Assembly: GCA_946481275.1 (NCBI GenBank)
Contig: CAMLMV010000011.1
Span: forward strand, 62,001 to 126,000
Length of the DNA stretch: 64,000 bases
Reading direction: 5' to 3'
From: an uncultured Massilia sp.
Lineage (GTDB): Bacteria; Pseudomonadota; Gammaproteobacteria; Burkholderiales; Burkholderiaceae
This document shows, in pieces, positions 27,601 through 50,481 of this stretch. Under the pieces are notes generated by a model. That model did not search any database and had not been told where the DNA came from. It saw only the letters and a list, made by a program, of their open reading frames with translations. Each line of letters starts with the position of its first letter. The stretch's first letter is position 1. Both the position numbers and the translations under genes were made by a program.

Positions 27601-28386
27601 TCAGCGTACGATGCAATCCACCGTATTCTGCAGCGCCGCCGGCCCCTGCGACGCGAGCGGTCCGCCGCTGCTGCCGTTGAACATCGGGGGCGGTGCGAAT
27701 TTCAGGCCCGGGTTCTGCGGCAGCACGATCGGCGGCTGCTTCATGTCGGGCACGAAGCCGAACTGCCCGGCCGGGAAGTTTTGCGCACCACCGGTGTTCG
27801 TCACGACGATCATCCCGTCGAGCACGGCCACGTGCAGGCCGGGTGCCAGGCCGGGGACGAGACCGGGATTGACCGGTGCCGCCGGCGCCGACTTCGCCGC
27901 CGCCGCGCCGTCGACCCACTGCGCGATAAACGTCGTGCCGCGGATGCCGATCGTGGCCGCCGGCGTCTTGAGCTGGAACTTCTCCTTGTTGCGCTTGCCC
28001 AGCAGGCCCGTGATCGAGCGCAGGCCGCCCTTCACGAGGCTGAACACGGCGCTGTCGCCGTCCGGCTTGTCGGCGTCGTAGGCGAAGTCGTCGATCTTGA
28101 AGGTCGTGCCGGGACGCAGCGTGATCTCGCTGTTGTCGATGAAGCGGATCTGCGCGTACGTGTTCTTCTCGGCCACGAGCGTGTCGCCGCTTTCCACCTG
28201 GGACTTCGCGGCCAGTACCTTCACGGTGCCGTCGGCCTTGCGGTCCATGAGCGGCCCGCTCAGGTGCTCCACGATGCCCACGACCTGCCCCGCCCAGGCC
28301 GCGCTTGCGCCGAACAGCAGCACGGCGCAGAGGAGTGTCCGGGCCAGCGCCTCAATTGCAGTACATTTTGGTCGCAGGTTTTTCAT
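27601..28386 (-). CDS. FecR-domain secreted protein in two-partner secretion operon
   Basis: A 261-residue exported protein with a signal peptide cut near AAWA (residue 32). The FecR/iron-transport-regulator-like beta domain spans about 45-165: SQVESGDTLVAEKNTYAQIR, ITLRPGTTFKIDDF, and ATIGIRGTTFIAQWVDG are typical. A Pro/Ala-rich tail follows, with a single cysteine near the end (VDCIVR). The start lies inside the last 35 bases of tpsA in another frame, with GGAG seven bases upstream, so translation is probably coupled. Such proteins often accompany large surface proteins, but its role here is unknown. Confidence 0.82.
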   Translation of the reverse strand: MKNLRPKCTAIEALARTLLCAVLLFGASAAWAGQVVGIVEHLSGPLMDRKADGTVKVLAAKSQVESGDTLVAEKNTYAQIRFIDNSEITLRPGTTFKIDDFAYDADKPDGDSAVFSLVKGGLRSITGLLGKRNKEKFQLKTPAATIGIRGTTFIAQWVDGAAAAKSAPAAPVNPGLVPGLAPGLHVAVLDGMIVVTNTGGAQNFPAGQFGFVPDMKQPPIVLPQNPGLKFAPPPMFNGSSGGPLASQGPAALQNTVDCIVR

Positions 28387-31300
28387 TCTTGACTCCAGTT
28401 TGTTCCGCTTGCGCGAGGCCCGTCAGGCGTTCTCCCGGCTTGACGGCCGATGCGTCTTTGTCGCTCTTGTCGGCGCTGCTGCCCGTGACGGCGGGCGCCG
28501 ACGTGTTGATGAGTTGGACCACCGTCTGCACCGCCTGGGCCACCGGCTTACCCTGCGCGTTCTGGCCGGTGCCGCTGCTGCCGCCCAACACGACGCAGAG
28601 GGCGTCGCCCGGATGCGTGCTGCAGAACGACGCCGTCGGCAGCACGGCTTCGCAGCCCGCCGTGGAAGGCGCCGCCGCGCACACCGCGAGGCTCGGCAGC
28701 CGCACGTCGCAGCCCTGCAGGCTCGGGCTGCCGATGCACTGGGCCAGCGTGGGCAGCACGACGTCGCAGCCGGGCAGCTTGCTGTTGCCCTGGCATTGCG
28801 TCAGCGTGGGCAGGATGCCGCTGCAGCTCGCGTCATGCGGGTTCGCGAGGCAGGCCTGGAAGCCCAGCGCCAGCACCTGCGTGCAACCTTCCAGCGACGG
28901 CGTCAGCTTGCACACGTCCAGCTTCGGCAGGACGTCGCCGCAGCCGGCGCCGGACGGGTTCGCGAGGCACGCGTCGAACCGGGCGCGCGCCAGCACGGCC
29001 GCGCAGCCGTAGGCGCTGCCGTCCGCGCGGCACTGGTCCAGCGGCGGCAAGGTCGTCGTGCAGCCCGGCGCTTTCGGGTCGGCGATACAGGCGGTGACCG
29101 CGTCGTGTTGCTTGATGACGACCGAGCAGCCATAGGTCGCCGGTGCCGTCCTGCAGACGTCGTAGACGGGCAAGGTGGCCGCGCAGCCCGGTGCTTTCGG
29201 GTCGGCCATGCACGCCGTGATCGCGTCGTGTTCCTTGATGATGGGACCGCAGCCAGGCGCGGTGGGTTGGGCCGAGCACGTCTCGTACGTCGGCATGATC
29301 TCGCCGCAACGCGGGCCGGACGGATTGACCGTACAGGCCTGCACGGCGGCCGCCAGCACGGGGCCGCAACCGGCCGTCGTGCGGTTGGCGAGGCAGGCGT
29401 CGAGCGTCGGCGTCGTGGCCGGCGGCGGCGTCCCGGTGTCGGTGCCGGTGGTGCTGACCTGCAGCTTGTCCGGGCTGGACACGCTGATGCTGTCGGCCGC
29501 GATCTGCGTGGAACCGCCCGTGACGCTGACGTTGCCGCTGACCGACATCACGCGGGCGCTGGACGAGATCGTGACGGCGCCGCCATTGTCGGCCAGCAGG
29601 CGCACGTTGCCGCTCGTCGTCGCCACGCGGCCGTGGATGGTCAGCGGGCTGTGCGTCGTGAGGCTGATGTCGCCGCTGTTGGTGCGCACTTCACCGGCGC
29701 CGTCGGTCACGTCGAACGCGGGCACGGTCATGCCGCCCACGCTGTCGATGACGATCGCGCCCCCATTGCCGTCGCCGTCCTGCACGGCCCGGCGCAGCAG
29801 CAACGGCCCGTTATTGGCGATGTTGATGGGCAGGCTGCCCGTGCCCTGGTTGGATGCCATCAGCATGCCGGTGCGGGTCTTGAGCGGGGTCGTCGTCGTG
29901 CCGATGCCGGCGCTGGACGCCAGGGTCAGCACGCCGGCCTGCAGCAGGCCGCTGCCGGCGATGCCCGCCGCGTCCAGGGTGGCGTCGGTGCCGCCGGCGA
30001 TGCCTGCGTCGAGCACCAGGAGGCCGCCGCTGATGAATCGCAGGCTGGCGTTGGGTGCGGTGATGCCGCTCATGCCATCGACGGTGCCGATCCGCAGGCC
30101 GCCCTGGTTCACGACGTGGAACAGGTTGCCGCTGGCGCTGCCGGACAGCGTGCCAATCTCGTTGGCGCCCGTGAACACGACCTGGCCGCCGCGCAGCGCC
30201 ACGTTGGCCGACCTGACGCTGCCCGCATCGCGTTCGTAGATGCCGAGGTTCGACATGAGCGCCAGCGTGCCGGTCGCGCCCAGCGGCGCCTTGATCGCCA
30301 GCTCGCCGTTGCCCGCATCCAGCGTCAGCTTCGCGCCCGCGAAACTCGCGGCGCCGTCGACGTCGATGCCGCCCCAGCCGCCCGCCAGTCCGCCGATCGT
30401 GAGATCGTTCGTCTGCACGTTGGACAGCGCGGCCTGCGAGATGGCGAAGCCGTCGCCGGTGCCGCCGATCGACATGTGCGTGTCCGCGCTGTTGGGTTGC
30501 AGCTTGACCTTGTCGGCGGCCACGATCGCGCCGATGGCCAGGCGGTCGCCCTGCAGCAGCACGGATTTCGCTGCCTTCACGCTGCCCGCGACGTCGATCA
30601 GGCCGCCGTTCGCATACTGGCTCGCGATGAAGCGGCTGCCCGCGTTCGCGGACAGGTCGACCGGCGCGCCGATGCGGATGGTGCCCGCGTTTTCCAGCAC
30701 GACGTTGGTCGCCGCGGAGAGTGCGCTGTCGACGGACACGGTGCCCGTGTGGGCGCTGTTGCCCACGTTGATCTCGAAGAGGCTGCCGCTCAGGCGCTGC
30801 AGGGAAGCGGCGTCCAGCGCCAACCCGCCCGTGCTGCCCGTCCCCGTCCCGATGCTGATGGCGCGGCCCGGATCGGCCGACGTCAGGGTCAGGATCGGCA
30901 ACTGGCCGCTGCCCGCGATGTTCCCCGCCAGCGTGATCTCGTTGGCACTGACGTCGATGTAGTTCCCGGTTGTCAGCGTCCCGTTGGCGCCCAGCGTGAA
31001 CGCGTTCTGCGCGCGGAAATCGAGGTCGCCGCCCGCGCTCACCTGCGCGTTGATGCGGATGTCGTTGCCCGCCTGTGCGCGCACGCTGCCGGCCGCGTTC
31101 AGCGCGTCCGTGACCGTGAGGTCGTGCTGTGCCTGCAGGACGACGTCCGTGCCGGCCGCCGTCAGCGTGGCCGGTGCCACGCGCGTGACGCCCGTCGCGA
31201 CGCCGCCGGACGGCGTCTTGACGTCGTTCGCGTTCGCCGTGCCGCCCGTCACGACCTCGATGTCGTACGGGTCGAGCAGCCACGTGCCGTTTTTACCTTT

Positions 31301-32464
31301 GCTGCCGGATGCATCGACCGCGATGCCGTCCACGTCGAGCGCATGGCCCGACGTCTCGACCTTGCCGCCGGCCACGCTGCCGCGCGCGGAGACGACGCCG
31401 TGCGCCGCCGTCGCGCCGTCGGACCACAGCACGACCTTGCCGCCGTTGCCGGCGCTGCCGTCGGCGCGGATCACGGCGCCGTTCGCTACCGTGGTGTTCT
31501 GCGCGCGCATGACACTGCCGCCGCCCTGCCAGTCACCGCCGACGAGCACCGTGCCGCCATTGCGGCCGCTCGCATCCACGCCGGCACCCGCGGCGATATT
31601 CACCTGCTCACCCAGCACCTGCACGGTGCCGCCGTCCGCACCCGCGCTGCCGGCAGCGCGCGTGACGCTGCCCGCGTCCAGCGCGATCGCGCGGCTCGCT
31701 TTCAGGACGACGCGGCCGTTCGCGCCCATGACGGCGCTGTCCGCGTTGACGACGCCGCGCTGGTTCACCAGGGCGCCGTAGATGCCGATGCGGCCGCCCT
31801 GCGCGATCACCTGGCCCAGGTTGACGGCCTGTCCCGCCGGGGCCGAGAGCTCCACGCGCAGGTCCGGATCGTTCGAGTCCACCAGCTGCACGCTGTGCCC
31901 CGCCGCGAGGATCACGTCGCCGTTCGGCGCCGTGACGATGCCCGTGTTCTCGACGTGCGGCGCGACCAGGAAGACCTGGCCGCCGGACGGCGTCGCGATC
32001 GTGCCTTCGTTGCGCACCGTGCCCGCGACGGCACCCGCCTGGAAGCGCTTGCGGCCCGCCTGGAAGTCGGCGTCGCTGATGTTCAGGGTGGAGGCCACGA
32101 GACCGTTCACGTCCACGCGCGCGCCCTGGCCGAACAGGATCCCGTTCGGGTTGATCAGGAAGACCTTGCCGTTCGATTGCAGCGCGCCGAGGATCTTCGT
32201 CGGGTCCTGGCCCAGCACGCGGTTCAGCACCGCGCTGTCCGCGCTCTGCTGGATGAAGCGCGTGACCTCGCCGGCACCGACGTTGAAGCTCTGCCAGTTG
32301 ATGATCGCGCCGGGCGTGTTCGTGATCGAGAACACGTTGCCCTGCTGGTTGAACGTGGCCTGGCCGGCAACGACCTGCGGCAGCGTGGGCGCGGCGACAC
32401 CAGACCCGCTGTAGCATGCCGCGAGCAGGAGTGCACCGAACCGTCTTTTGATGGATGAAGTCAT
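28352..32464 (-). CDS. Filamentous-haemagglutinin-type exoprotein (TpsA) with Cys-rich C-terminal repeats
   Basis: A 1370-residue two-partner secretion substrate. A signal peptide ends near GSGVAA (residue 25). The TPS secretion domain (about 30-270) contains GAIINWQSFNVGAGE, FLINPNGILFGQGARVDVNG and VAPHVENTGIVTAPNG, typical of FhaB/HMW proteins. A long beta-helical region rich in G, A, V and N runs to about 1020. Residues 1024-1290 are 14 C-x8-C units (see the repeat entry), followed by an 80-residue charged tail ending KMYCN. The ATG at 32464 has GAGGA seven bases upstream and is ten bases after tpsB. Most TpsA proteins contain few cysteines, so this tail is unusual. Adhesion is a reasonable but unproven role. 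Confidence 0.9.
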   Translation of the reverse strand: MTSSIKRRFGALLLAACYSGSGVAAPTLPQVVAGQATFNQQGNVFSITNTPGAIINWQSFNVGAGEVTRFIQQSADSAVLNRVLGQDPTKILGALQSNGKVFLINPNGILFGQGARVDVNGLVASTLNISDADFQAGRKRFQAGAVAGTVRNEGTIATPSGGQVFLVAPHVENTGIVTAPNGDVILAAGHSVQLVDSNDPDLRVELSAPAGQAVNLGQVIAQGGRIGIYGALVNQRGVVNADSAVMGANGRVVLKASRAIALDAGSVTRAAGSAGADGGTVQVLGEQVNIAAGAGVDASGRNGGTVLVGGDWQGGGSVMRAQNTTVANGAVIRADGSAGNGGKVVLWSDGATAAHGVVSARGSVAGGKVETSGHALDVDGIAVDASGSKGKNGTWLLDPYDIEVVTGGTANANDVKTPSGGVATGVTRVAPATLTAAGTDVVLQAQHDLTVTDALNAAGSVRAQAGNDIRINAQVSAGGDLDFRAQNAFTLGANGTLTTGNYIDVSANEITLAGNIAGSGQLPILTLTSADPGRAISIGTGTGSTGGLALDAASLQRLSGSLFEINVGNSAHTGTVSVDSALSAATNVVLENAGTIRIGAPVDLSANAGSRFIASQYANGGLIDVAGSVKAAKSVLLQGDRLAIGAIVAADKVKLQPNSADTHMSIGGTGDGFAISQAALSNVQTNDLTIGGLAGGWGGIDVDGAASFAGAKLTLDAGNGELAIKAPLGATGTLALMSNLGIYERDAGSVRSANVALRGGQVVFTGANEIGTLSGSASGNLFHVVNQGGLRIGTVDGMSGITAPNASLRFISGGLLVLDAGIAGGTDATLDAAGIAGSGLLQAGVLTLASSAGIGTTTTPLKTRTGMLMASNQGTGSLPINIANNGPLLLRRAVQDGDGNGGAIVIDSVGGMTVPAFDVTDGAGEVRTNSGDISLTTHSPLTIHGRVATTSGNVRLLADNGGAVTISSSARVMSVSGNVSVTGGSTQIAADSISVSSPDKLQVSTTGTDTGTPPPATTPTLDACLANRTTAGCGPVLAAAVQACTVNPSGPRCGEIMPTYETCSAQPTAPGCGPIIKEHDAITACMADPKAPGCAATLPVYDVCRTAPATYGCSVVIKQHDAVTACIADPKAPGCTTTLPPLDQCRADGSAYGCAAVLARARFDACLANPSGAGCGDVLPKLDVCKLTPSLEGCTQVLALGFQACLANPHDASCSGILPTLTQCQGNSKLPGCDVVLPTLAQCIGSPSLQGCDVRLPSLAVCAAAPSTAGCEAVLPTASFCSTHPGDALCVVLGGSSGTGQNAQGKPVAQAVQTVVQLINTSAPAVTGSSADKSDKDASAVKPGERLTGLAQAEQTGVKNEKPATKMYCN
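28595..29395 (-). repeat. 14 tandem C-x8-C protein repeats in TpsA C-terminus
   Basis: Residues 1024-1290 of the exoprotein hold 28 cysteines as 14 pairs, each exactly C-x8-C. Inner segments include LANRTTAG, SAQPTAPG, MADPKAPG, IADPKAPG, LANPSGAG and IGSPSLQG, so the common form is C-xx(N/D/S)P-xxxG-C. Linkers are 9-12 residues, often with a central LP (ATLPVYDV, DVVLPTLAQ). The units differ from each other, so this is an old repeat and not a recent DNA expansion. Confidence 0.9.
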
Positions 32465-32474
32465 GGATGGATCC

Positions 32475-34049
32475 TCAATACGCCAGCGCCACGCGCACGT
32501 GGAGCTTGTTCCTGCTGGTAGCCGCCACCTGGCCGACGTGCAGGCCGTGGCCGTAGTCGAGCTGCACGCTGGCCGCGCCGCCCGCCGAGACGCGCAGGCC
32601 GAGGCCCGTGCTGGAGATCGCGGTGCGGTGCAGTTCGGCCGGCAGCGCACGATTGCGCTCGCCCCACGCCGTGTCGTAGAAGCCGAGCAGGCGGCATTGC
32701 CAGCCCGCGCGGCCGCACAGGTCCGGCGTGTACAGTTCGATGTTGGAGACGATGCCCGTGTCCGTCGCGAGATCGCGCTCGCCGAAGCCGCGCACGGTCG
32801 TCGCGCCGCCGGCGCCGAACTGCTCGCCCGGCACCAGCGCGTCGTGCGTCCACTGGCCGTTCAGCAGCACGCGCGTCTGCCAGTCGCCTGCCACGATGTT
32901 GGTGAACGCGGCCGCGAAGCGCACCATGCGGTAGCCGGCCCTGGCGCCGCTGCGCACGGCCGCGAAATCGTCCGCGCTGCCGCGCGCGCCGCCCGGCACG
33001 TTCTGCAGCAGTGCGATCGAGAAGTCGGTCTGGCCGTCGGCAGCGGTATGGCTGCCGGCCCACGCGATGCTCAGCGGGCGCACGGTGACGTCGTTGCCGA
33101 AGTTCTGCGTGCCGAAGACGACGTTGTTGCGGTAGGCCTTGACGTCGAACCCGGCCACGATGCGGCTCTCCAGGTTGCCGCGCTTCGGCAAAACATGGTT
33201 GTAGCGGCCGCCGTAGACCGTGCCCTTGCCGCTCACGGCGAGGTCGAACAGGCCGGCGCTGACGGCGCCCGAATCGACGTCCGAATAGCTCGCGAACAGG
33301 TCGATGGAATCGCCCAGCGCGTACAGCGGCACGTGATACCCGGCGGCCCACACGGCCACGCGGTCCGGGCGCTCGGCCGTCGTGGTGTACTGCAAGGTGC
33401 CTACGTGGTCGCGGCCCCACAGGTTCGCGTGCTGCAGCAGCACGCCCGCGTGGGTCTTGCCGGTGGACTCCGTGCCCGTGTTGTCGGCGTTGAACATCAC
33501 CTTCCACGGGCGCTCGTCCGCGACTTCCACCCTGGCGTCGACCGCGTCCTCGCCATTCGCATCGGCACCGGCGAGGCTCAGCTTGACCTTCTTCGCCGGA
33601 TTCTCGTTGACGAGCCTGAGGTTGCGCGACACGTCCGCCAGGTTGGGCGTCGCGCCCGGGACGAGCGTGGGCAGGCTGGCGCGCACGTTCGCATCAAGGA
33701 ACCAGCGGTTGCCCGTCACCTCGACCTGGCGCACGGTCGTCTGCACCACGCGCAGGCGCACGACGCCGCCATTGAGTTCCTGTTCGGGCAACTGGACGGT
33801 GACGACGTTCCAGCCGCGCGCGTGGTACAGCGCCTCGAGCGCTTCCAGCGCGCGCTGGACGTCGCCGAAATCGCGGCCCGCGCCCGTGTACGGCGCCACC
33901 GCGGCCTGCACGTCGGCAGCGGGCAGCAGGGTATTGCCGCTCACGTCGAAGCGGCTGATCTCGAACCGGATCGCATCGTCGGCCCAGGCGGCGCCGACGG
34001 CGGCAGCCAGCACCGAGCCCGCGACCAGGCGTGCCAAGCGTAGTTTCAT
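32475..34049 (-). CDS. TpsB outer-membrane transporter (ShlB/FhaC/HecB family)
   Basis: Outer-membrane pore that exports the TpsA protein encoded downstream. The product is about 524 residues from the ATG at 34049, which gives a clean signal peptide ending AAWA. POTRA domains occupy about 30-190 (FDVSGNTLLPAADVQAAV, VVQTTVRQVEVTGNRWF), followed by a beta-barrel with the FhaC-type motif TTVRGFGERD and a C-terminal strand ending HVRVALAY. Longer in-frame starts exist up to 34136, and none has a clear ribosome-binding site. It is separated from tpsA by ten bases. Confidence 0.9.
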   Translation of the reverse strand: MKLRLARLVAGSVLAAAVGAAWADDAIRFEISRFDVSGNTLLPAADVQAAVAPYTGAGRDFGDVQRALEALEALYHARGWNVVTVQLPEQELNGGVVRLRVVQTTVRQVEVTGNRWFLDANVRASLPTLVPGATPNLADVSRNLRLVNENPAKKVKLSLAGADANGEDAVDARVEVADERPWKVMFNADNTGTESTGKTHAGVLLQHANLWGRDHVGTLQYTTTAERPDRVAVWAAGYHVPLYALGDSIDLFASYSDVDSGAVSAGLFDLAVSGKGTVYGGRYNHVLPKRGNLESRIVAGFDVKAYRNNVVFGTQNFGNDVTVRPLSIAWAGSHTAADGQTDFSIALLQNVPGGARGSADDFAAVRSGARAGYRMVRFAAAFTNIVAGDWQTRVLLNGQWTHDALVPGEQFGAGGATTVRGFGERDLATDTGIVSNIELYTPDLCGRAGWQCRLLGFYDTAWGERNRALPAELHRTAISSTGLGLRVSAGGAASVQLDYGHGLHVGQVAATSRNKLHVRVALAY

Positions 34050-34189
34050 GTTGTGGATGACCATGTCGTTATTGTTCTGGCCCATGCATCCCCGGGCCTG
34101 CGGCAATGCCGCCGAAAGGAAAATCTCGTTTGTCACGAGTGTAAAGAGGTTTTCCTTGCCTGAGAGAAAAATTATTGAAAATCAGAACT

Positions 34190-50375: not shown

Positions 50376-50389
50376 TGGGGCTGTGGACG

Positions 50390-50445
50390 TGCGCTGCATA
50401 CCGCAGCGCAAAAGATTGTGAACGTGCGCTGCGTACCGCAGCGCA
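50390..50445. repeat. Two tandem palindromic units between rpsF and lexA
   Basis: TGCGCTGC-N5-GCAGCGCA occurs at 50390-50410 and 50425-50445, 35 bases apart, each preceded by (A/G)ACG and followed by AAAA. They differ at a single base within the spacer. They could be operators, a REP-like dimer or transcript hairpins; the location between divergent promoters favours a regulatory or insertion origin. Confidence 0.6.
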
Positions 50446-50481
50446 AAAAAACTTCGAAATCCCCTTGCGCGCGGCGCAATA

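Follow-up and report, generated by a model that had tools for sequence, protein, structure and literature searches.

Release versus retention of TpsA fibres in two-partner secretion (TPS) is understood for only a few cases. In HMW1, a C-terminal disulfide loop lies in the periplasm and cannot leave the TpsB pore, which keeps the protein cell-bound, and HxuA is expected to behave likewise (excerpts of PMC5422565 and PMC3297439). Closely spaced cysteines give small loops, which should not interfere with passage (excerpt of PMC8151025). The locus described here resembles these two systems in that its TpsA may be held at the surface through C-terminal Cys chemistry, with a C-terminus that is periplasmic in HMW1 and expected to be so in HxuA (excerpts of PMC5422565 and PMC3297439). 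In HMW1 and HxuA, however, one intrachain Cys pair closes a loop within TpsA, whereas here a single penultimate Cys has a candidate partner Cys on another protein. Moreover, the excerpted descriptions of HMW1 and HxuA in PMC5422565 and PMC3297439 mention no array of C-x8-C units, such as the one we report below. Trimeric autotransporters (sadBA, aatA-tpgA) offer another parallel, in that their surface fibre has a partner gene for an envelope protein dedicated to it, and a title cited in PMC8151025 reports a periplasmic partner protein in complex with the adhesin and peptidoglycan. Chlamydial Pmp autotransporters are likewise Cys-rich type V passengers, with up to 18 cysteines (excerpt of PMC8151025). 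The trimeric autotransporters differ from our locus in having no TpsB, and the Pmp proteins in being classical autotransporters. To our knowledge, terminal-Cys pairing is absent from the former and a regular C-x8-C repeat from the latter.

The locus lies in a 64,000-nt stretch of DNA from an uncultured Massilia sp., referred to as the window, and its three genes follow one another on the reverse strand in the order tpsB-tpsA-fecR. The first (32475–34136) encodes a TpsB outer-membrane transporter of the ShlB/FhaC type (Pfam ShlB, E 1e-23; POTRA_2, E 3.4e-16). The second (28352–32464) encodes a TpsA exoprotein of 1370 residues, counted from the ATG at 32464, which we chose as the start within a frame open from 32650. 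TpsA residues 34–267 (31664–32365) form the TPS secretion domain, which matches PF05860 with 113.7 bits against a cut-off of 33.5 (E 1.7e-32), and the adhes_NPXG model TIGR01901 also matches (E 1.7e-23). A cognate TpsB with POTRA domains and β-barrel adjoins tpsA here and in 14/14 relatives. The TpsA profile resembles EtpA (8vba, 8cpk), 2odl and the heme/hemopexin-binding protein (4i84, 4rm6) in its TPS domain and β-helix, and the PDB profile search returned just one other row, at chance level (E 0.49). These matches all end at or before profile position 931 of 1356, whereas the tail of TpsA starts at about majority column 1024 of 1370. The third gene (27601–28386) encodes a FecR-domain protein of 261 residues (PF04773, 43.6 bits against a cut-off of 24; E 4.2e-11), the proposed periplasmic partner of TpsA. 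Its N-terminal stretch looks by eye like a signal peptide, and a comparison with PDB sequences gave no match at E ≤ 1. The LapA retention module (NF033682) matches it weakly, at 24.5 bits against a cut-off of 50; the FecR domain here differs from that module in forming a separate protein with a C-terminal Cys.

TpsA contains 30 cysteines: C17 in the signal peptide, 28 that form 14 C-x8-C pairs in residues 1024–1290, and C1369. The original prediction had placed 14 such units, joined by linkers of 9–12 residues, at 28595–29395, and these coordinates agree exactly with the reverse-strand translation. The unit form that it gave, C-xx(N/D/S)P-xxxG-C, proved to be common rather than universal, with P in 11/14 units, G in 11/14 and N/D/S in 9/14. 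When residues 1015–1300 were shuffled, none of 20,000 sequences reached 14 C-x8-C units and the maximum was 6; the array is beyond chance. Within 28595–29395, Tandem Repeats Finder reported no DNA array. Elsewhere in the window, at 50382–50448, there is a 35-bp tandem repeat of 1.9 copies with 93% matches. We considered whether the tail is a known domain and rejected this, as no Pfam or NCBIfam model covers residues 1024–1290 at E ≤ 1 and the tail has no match among PDB sequences. With PF05860 present at the other end of the protein, this is indeed a TpsA with a Cys-paired C-terminal domain outside the Pfam and NCBIfam families, as had been supposed. The possibility that TpsA is a lipoprotein, C17 being part of a lipobox-like L-A-A-C, was also set aside; six other N-termini, compared by eye, have no such motif there.

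To place the tail among its relatives, we ran two protein searches, which gave 219 and 379 matches and show the tail conserved among many relatives. From each search 120 matches were listed, making 221 distinct proteins. Those with names are largely from Massilia, Telluria and Undibacterium, the others coming from Duganella, Pseudoduganella, Noviherbaspirillum, Sulfuricella, Denitratisoma and a Desulfuromonadaceae bin. PF05860 is present in most of the 221, and several that lack it are from short contigs. Their tails contain 4307 C-x8-C units, 12 to 41 per protein, against only 5 C-x7-C pairs, 1 C-x6-C pair and 12 unpaired cysteines, which indicates that tail cysteines are gained and lost in pairs, as expected of paired thiols. 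Linkers measure 9–12 residues in 4058 of 4086 cases. Between residue 60 and the tail there is no Cys in 151 of the 221 proteins and exactly two in 51; many TpsAs have an extra closely spaced pair ahead of the tail, such as the C-x4-C at 1087/1092 (Undibacterium-type P0047, P0055–P0057 and others). Across all relatives considered, the number of units ranges from 0 to 46. Arrays of 35–46 units occur in P0001, P0057, P0128 and L107, some of the units being nearly identical in P0001, which suggests recent expansion of these long arrays. Genome scans with one Undibacterium-type tail query found the tail in 2 of 300 genomes at the order level, in 44 of 294 at the family level (of which four or more are weak matches interrupted by stops) and in 3 of 369 at the class level (where two matches are weak, at E 3e-4 and 7.5e-4, and have in-frame stops). 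These counts point to a tail that is found mainly in one bacterial family, with sporadic spread. At one locus (L003, 6681–11191), the TpsA relative is split into two overlapping ORFs in different frames and may be broken or misassembled.

AlphaFold2 predicts an ordered structure for the tail, in line with the original prediction, which had called for such a check. For residues 960–1370 (43 sequences), the model has a pLDDT of 69.5 overall and a pTM of 0.38, with β-strands to about residue 1005 followed by short regular helices across all 14 units. In 10-residue blocks, pLDDT within the units is 61–89, nearly all above 76, while the final 78 residues fall below 50. For the last eight units (residues 1140–1298, 49 sequences), mean pLDDT rises to 88.1 and pTM to 0.69. 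Of these 159 residues, 98 score 90 or higher, and the model contains only helices and loops. Both alignments consist of fairly close relatives, and S–S bonds lie outside what the AlphaFold2 model represents. The tail is thus predicted to be an α-solenoid, in which each Pro/Gly loop would be closed by one disulfide, the bonds being deduced from the pairing of the cysteines. Foldseek and VIA-align comparisons of the two tail models with the PDB gave no convincing match, an absence that is not proof of a new fold.

Cysteines alone cannot separate an oxidised array from a metal-bound one, and their density in the tail is high, so the units might instead hold free cysteines for metal binding or thiol exchange, as a metal sponge or redox patch. 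We regard this as very improbable. The compartment is oxidising. Besides the cysteines, the loop positions that are kept are Pro at position 5 (3808 of 4307 units) and the Gly that precedes the second Cys (3865 units), which are typical of turns, and neither His nor an acidic residue is dominant at any loop position in the 4307 units. The metal-binding function that had been offered as one option for the tail gained no specific support.

Three features go beyond the original prediction: C1369, the YCN end to which it belongs, and the fecR gene that overlaps this end. After the tail comes a linker (residues 1291–1365; 28370–28594) that has low confidence in the model and is probably disordered, and then the terminal motif K-M-Y-C-N-COOH (28355–28369), in which C1369 (codon 28360–28358) is penultimate and unpaired. 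Since it is the only Cys after the tail, the last pair ending 79 residues earlier, TpsA has no intrachain Cys loop near its C-terminal end of the kind that defines HMW1 and HxuA, although it may work like HMW1 in anchoring. In the listed homologs, the stretch after the last unit has a median length of 84 residues, and 211 of the 221 end in [YF]CN. Six of the ten exceptions are nearby variants (VCR, PVC, KCN, EKC, QCSS, QCTA). Three others, apparently truncated, break off 3–13 residues beyond a unit, and the last, which breaks off six residues beyond a unit, lacks Cys in its final four positions. In genome loci L015–L049, several of which represent the same gene, YCN is the end of all 33 closed tail ORFs.

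The end of tpsA and the start of fecR overlap by 35 nt in two reading frames (28352–28386), and the fecR ATG lies 35 nt inside tpsA in 14/14 named Massilia and Telluria loci. The YCN motif is consequently read in two frames, which raises the possibility that it is a by-product of the fecR start. We collected 50 distinct tpsA/fecR overlaps and used the 48 in which the fecR frame is open. At their third positions, the codons for Y, C and N carry either C or T (31C:17T, 43C:5T and 20C:28T, respectively), and FecR residues change with them, whereas the first and second bases are invariant. Conservation of YCN thus acts on TpsA, and the by-product explanation is rejected. It is ruled out as well by YCN ends that have no overlapping FecR start (L026, the same gene as L108; L049; L053; L107). 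The overlap also contains a GGAG stretch and the ATG within tpsA codons, with the same spacing in 14/14 named loci, which suggests translational coupling of the two genes.

The FecR protein has a counterpart to C1369. It ends in D-C-I-V-R-COOH (27604–27618), and its single mature Cys, C258, is the fourth residue from the end. A DCxVR end is found in 119 of the 120 FecR homologs listed from 2441 matches, and 118 of these 119 have one Cys after residue 45. The 26 complete, non-duplicate FecR proteins of tail loci all end in DC[IVE]VR, a count from which L026, L034, L038 and L049 were left out as closed rows that are not full FecR readings. FecR proteins from the loci closest to the Undibacterium protein end in ICEVR, and that of G301 in NCEVR. 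The order tpsB-tpsA-fecR is found in 14/14 named genome loci, which are near relatives, having been found by tail similarity. Of 33 tail loci, 30 showed a FecR start or domain; L026 and L049 showed none, and L021 has only 51 nt of downstream DNA. In L009, L010 and L013, extra DNA lies between FecR and PhoH, with glyoxalase-type and unrelated ORFs as judged by eye. We considered TpsB as the thiol partner of TpsA instead and rejected it: in 10/10 relatives compared, it has no constant cysteines other than a C-x6-C pair, at the 80th and 73rd residues from the end, and so none to spare.

We tentatively favor a reading, short of calling it probable, in which the tail is an exported, disulfide-stapled stalk and TpsA is held through its terminal Cys, probably bonded to a periplasmic FecR protein too bulky for TpsB. 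The reading draws on observed sequences, conservation, co-occurrence, gene order and coding-frame constraint, together with the predicted fold. In such a three-gene surface-fibre system, TpsA would thread through TpsB and its N-terminal β-helix would fold outside. Each 8-residue loop of the tail would be closed by its own disulfide and could pass the pore because it is small; the solenoid, presumably outside the cell, would then form a stiff membrane-proximal stalk with a length set by the number of units. The last ∼75 residues may stay in the TpsB pore as a flexible strand, with the penultimate Cys of TpsA bonded, by a disulfide in the periplasm, to the lone C-terminal Cys of the co-translated FecR protein. 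Export would stop because this Cys is joined to a folded, bulky protein, presumed periplasmic, that is unable to follow. We combine a stapled stalk with a TpsA–FecR disulfide stopper because the layout splits the roles, with many passable loops on the one hand and one lone Cys on the other. As to its place among known systems, the locus may well represent TPS surface anchoring in altered form, plus a repeat domain that has no Pfam or NCBIfam model. In the literature searched, which included few subscription papers, we found no description of TpsA–FecR terminal-Cys anchoring or of a Cys-repeat TpsA tail. If true, a fixed terminal Cys on the fibre and on the product of the next gene would be a simple anchoring chemistry in a large bacterial group, and would supply a sequence rule predicting which TpsAs remain cell-bound. 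The tail, for its part, would bring a disulfide-rich repeat domain into a secretion pathway believed to avoid cysteines, and would bear on the size of the oxidised units that can pass TpsB pores.

Turning INDEPENDENCE from the tail, we used 43 hand-picked genomes, 23 with tails and 20 without. These contain 106 PF05860 places, and the ends of 60 were examined, taking the longest ORF that enters the stretch as the TpsA of each place; 54 ends were readable. A Cys occurs in the last six residues of 12 of the 54, and seven of the 12 end in YCN. Four of these Cys-ending TpsAs, all of them YCN, have a FecR-like gene next to them, versus none of the 42 TpsAs without such a Cys (Fisher P = 0.0016). 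L073 has 0 C-x8-C units in the 964 residues read and L067 has 1 in the part read, and both keep the YCN end and the FecR partner. We then turned to 20 FecR relatives with 40–48% identity, among L140–L159, as outgroup loci. In 14 of the 20, a TpsA-like ORF lies directly upstream of FecR, and 14/14 of these ORFs end in a Cys within four residues (e.g. KKC, PRCG, PVCI, SCSA, RSCN), with no C-x8-C units in any of them. Ten of these 14 ORFs have a confirmed TPS domain; at L147, L149, L151 and L159 none was seen in that ORF. When the two samples are combined, 18/18 FecR-adjacent TpsAs end in Cys versus 8/50 others (P = 1.2e-10), or 14/14 with only the 10 TPS-confirmed outgroups (P = 6.7e-9), although these Fisher values overstate independence, given the relatedness of the sequences and the choice of the 43 genomes by hand.

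These data bear on which part of TpsA is responsible for retention. The stapled tail could itself be the stopper: oxidised by DsbA, it would fold in the periplasm and be barred from TpsB, and the terminal Cys and FecR would be accessory. An oxidised, folded domain of 270 residues does resemble known export blocks, as secretion was inhibited in a fusion with a cholera toxin subunit that contains a disulfide, and autotransport is frequently hindered by disulfides (excerpt of PMC3297439), and the tail is C-terminal, as is the HMW1 anchor. However, L073 and L067 show that the YCN end and FecR partner are kept even where the part read contains one unit or none, a range of 0 to 46 units would be odd for a plug, and the fixed 8-residue gap allows only small loops. 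We consider this explanation unlikely, if worth serious weight. Retention maps better to the last Cys than to the tail, given L073, L067 and the 14 outgroup loci that keep a terminal Cys with no tail. Hence, of the original proposal that the tail blocks release and holds the fibre, surface retention stays part of our reading, while the tail as its cause has become the less supported part.

A different objection is that the two terminal cysteines may not be bonded to each other. Each could react with a third factor (an oxidoreductase, another envelope protein, or an enzyme that acylates or sorts) or form homodimers, with FecR acting as a non-covalent anchor or chaperone. Consistent with this, some terminal-Cys FecR relatives have no adjacent TpsA: in L141, L155 and L156 a TpsB is near FecR with no TpsA there, and in L157 and L158 neither is beside it. 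In the latter two loci, the ORF after the FecR relative is presumably ftsK, judging by eye; L148 was placed in none of the neighbour classes. Conversely, L053, L107 and L108 have YCN TpsAs with no FecR directly downstream, and L075, L083, L088, L098 and L100 have Cys-ending TpsAs with no FecR neighbor. Yet the genomes of the three YCN cases do carry a FecR with a C-terminal Cys: in L108 it lies just upstream in the same cluster, and in L053 and L107 it accompanies another YCN TpsA at a different place in the genome. Furthermore, the two terminal cysteines are tightly coupled in adjacent genes across several families. On balance we judge the absence of a mutual bond rather unlikely.

Returning to the TpsA–FecR disulfide, it is quite possible, though not yet probable in our estimation, that a periplasmic FecR protein is a third partner in two-partner secretion, and that a C-terminus-to-C-terminus disulfide makes the fibre cell-bound in many Burkholderiales. 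This arrangement would probably predate the tail, the stapled stalk of variable length having been gained in Oxalobacteraceae-like lineages and some others. In 27 outgroup FecR relatives from elsewhere in the order (L113–L139), the Cys is anywhere from third-last to sixth-last, and outgroup FecRs have an additional Cys pair about 80–100 residues from the end, which counts against the reading. Of 29 FecR relatives at the class level, 8 carry a Cys among their last five residues. Two of these eight follow a Cys-ending ORF (L202, L211) and three follow a TpsB (L190, L191, L206); the ORF ahead of L214 does not resemble TPS, and for the other two no upstream ORF could be read. Terminal-Cys FecR-domain proteins recur beside TpsB/TpsA genes across the Burkholderiales.
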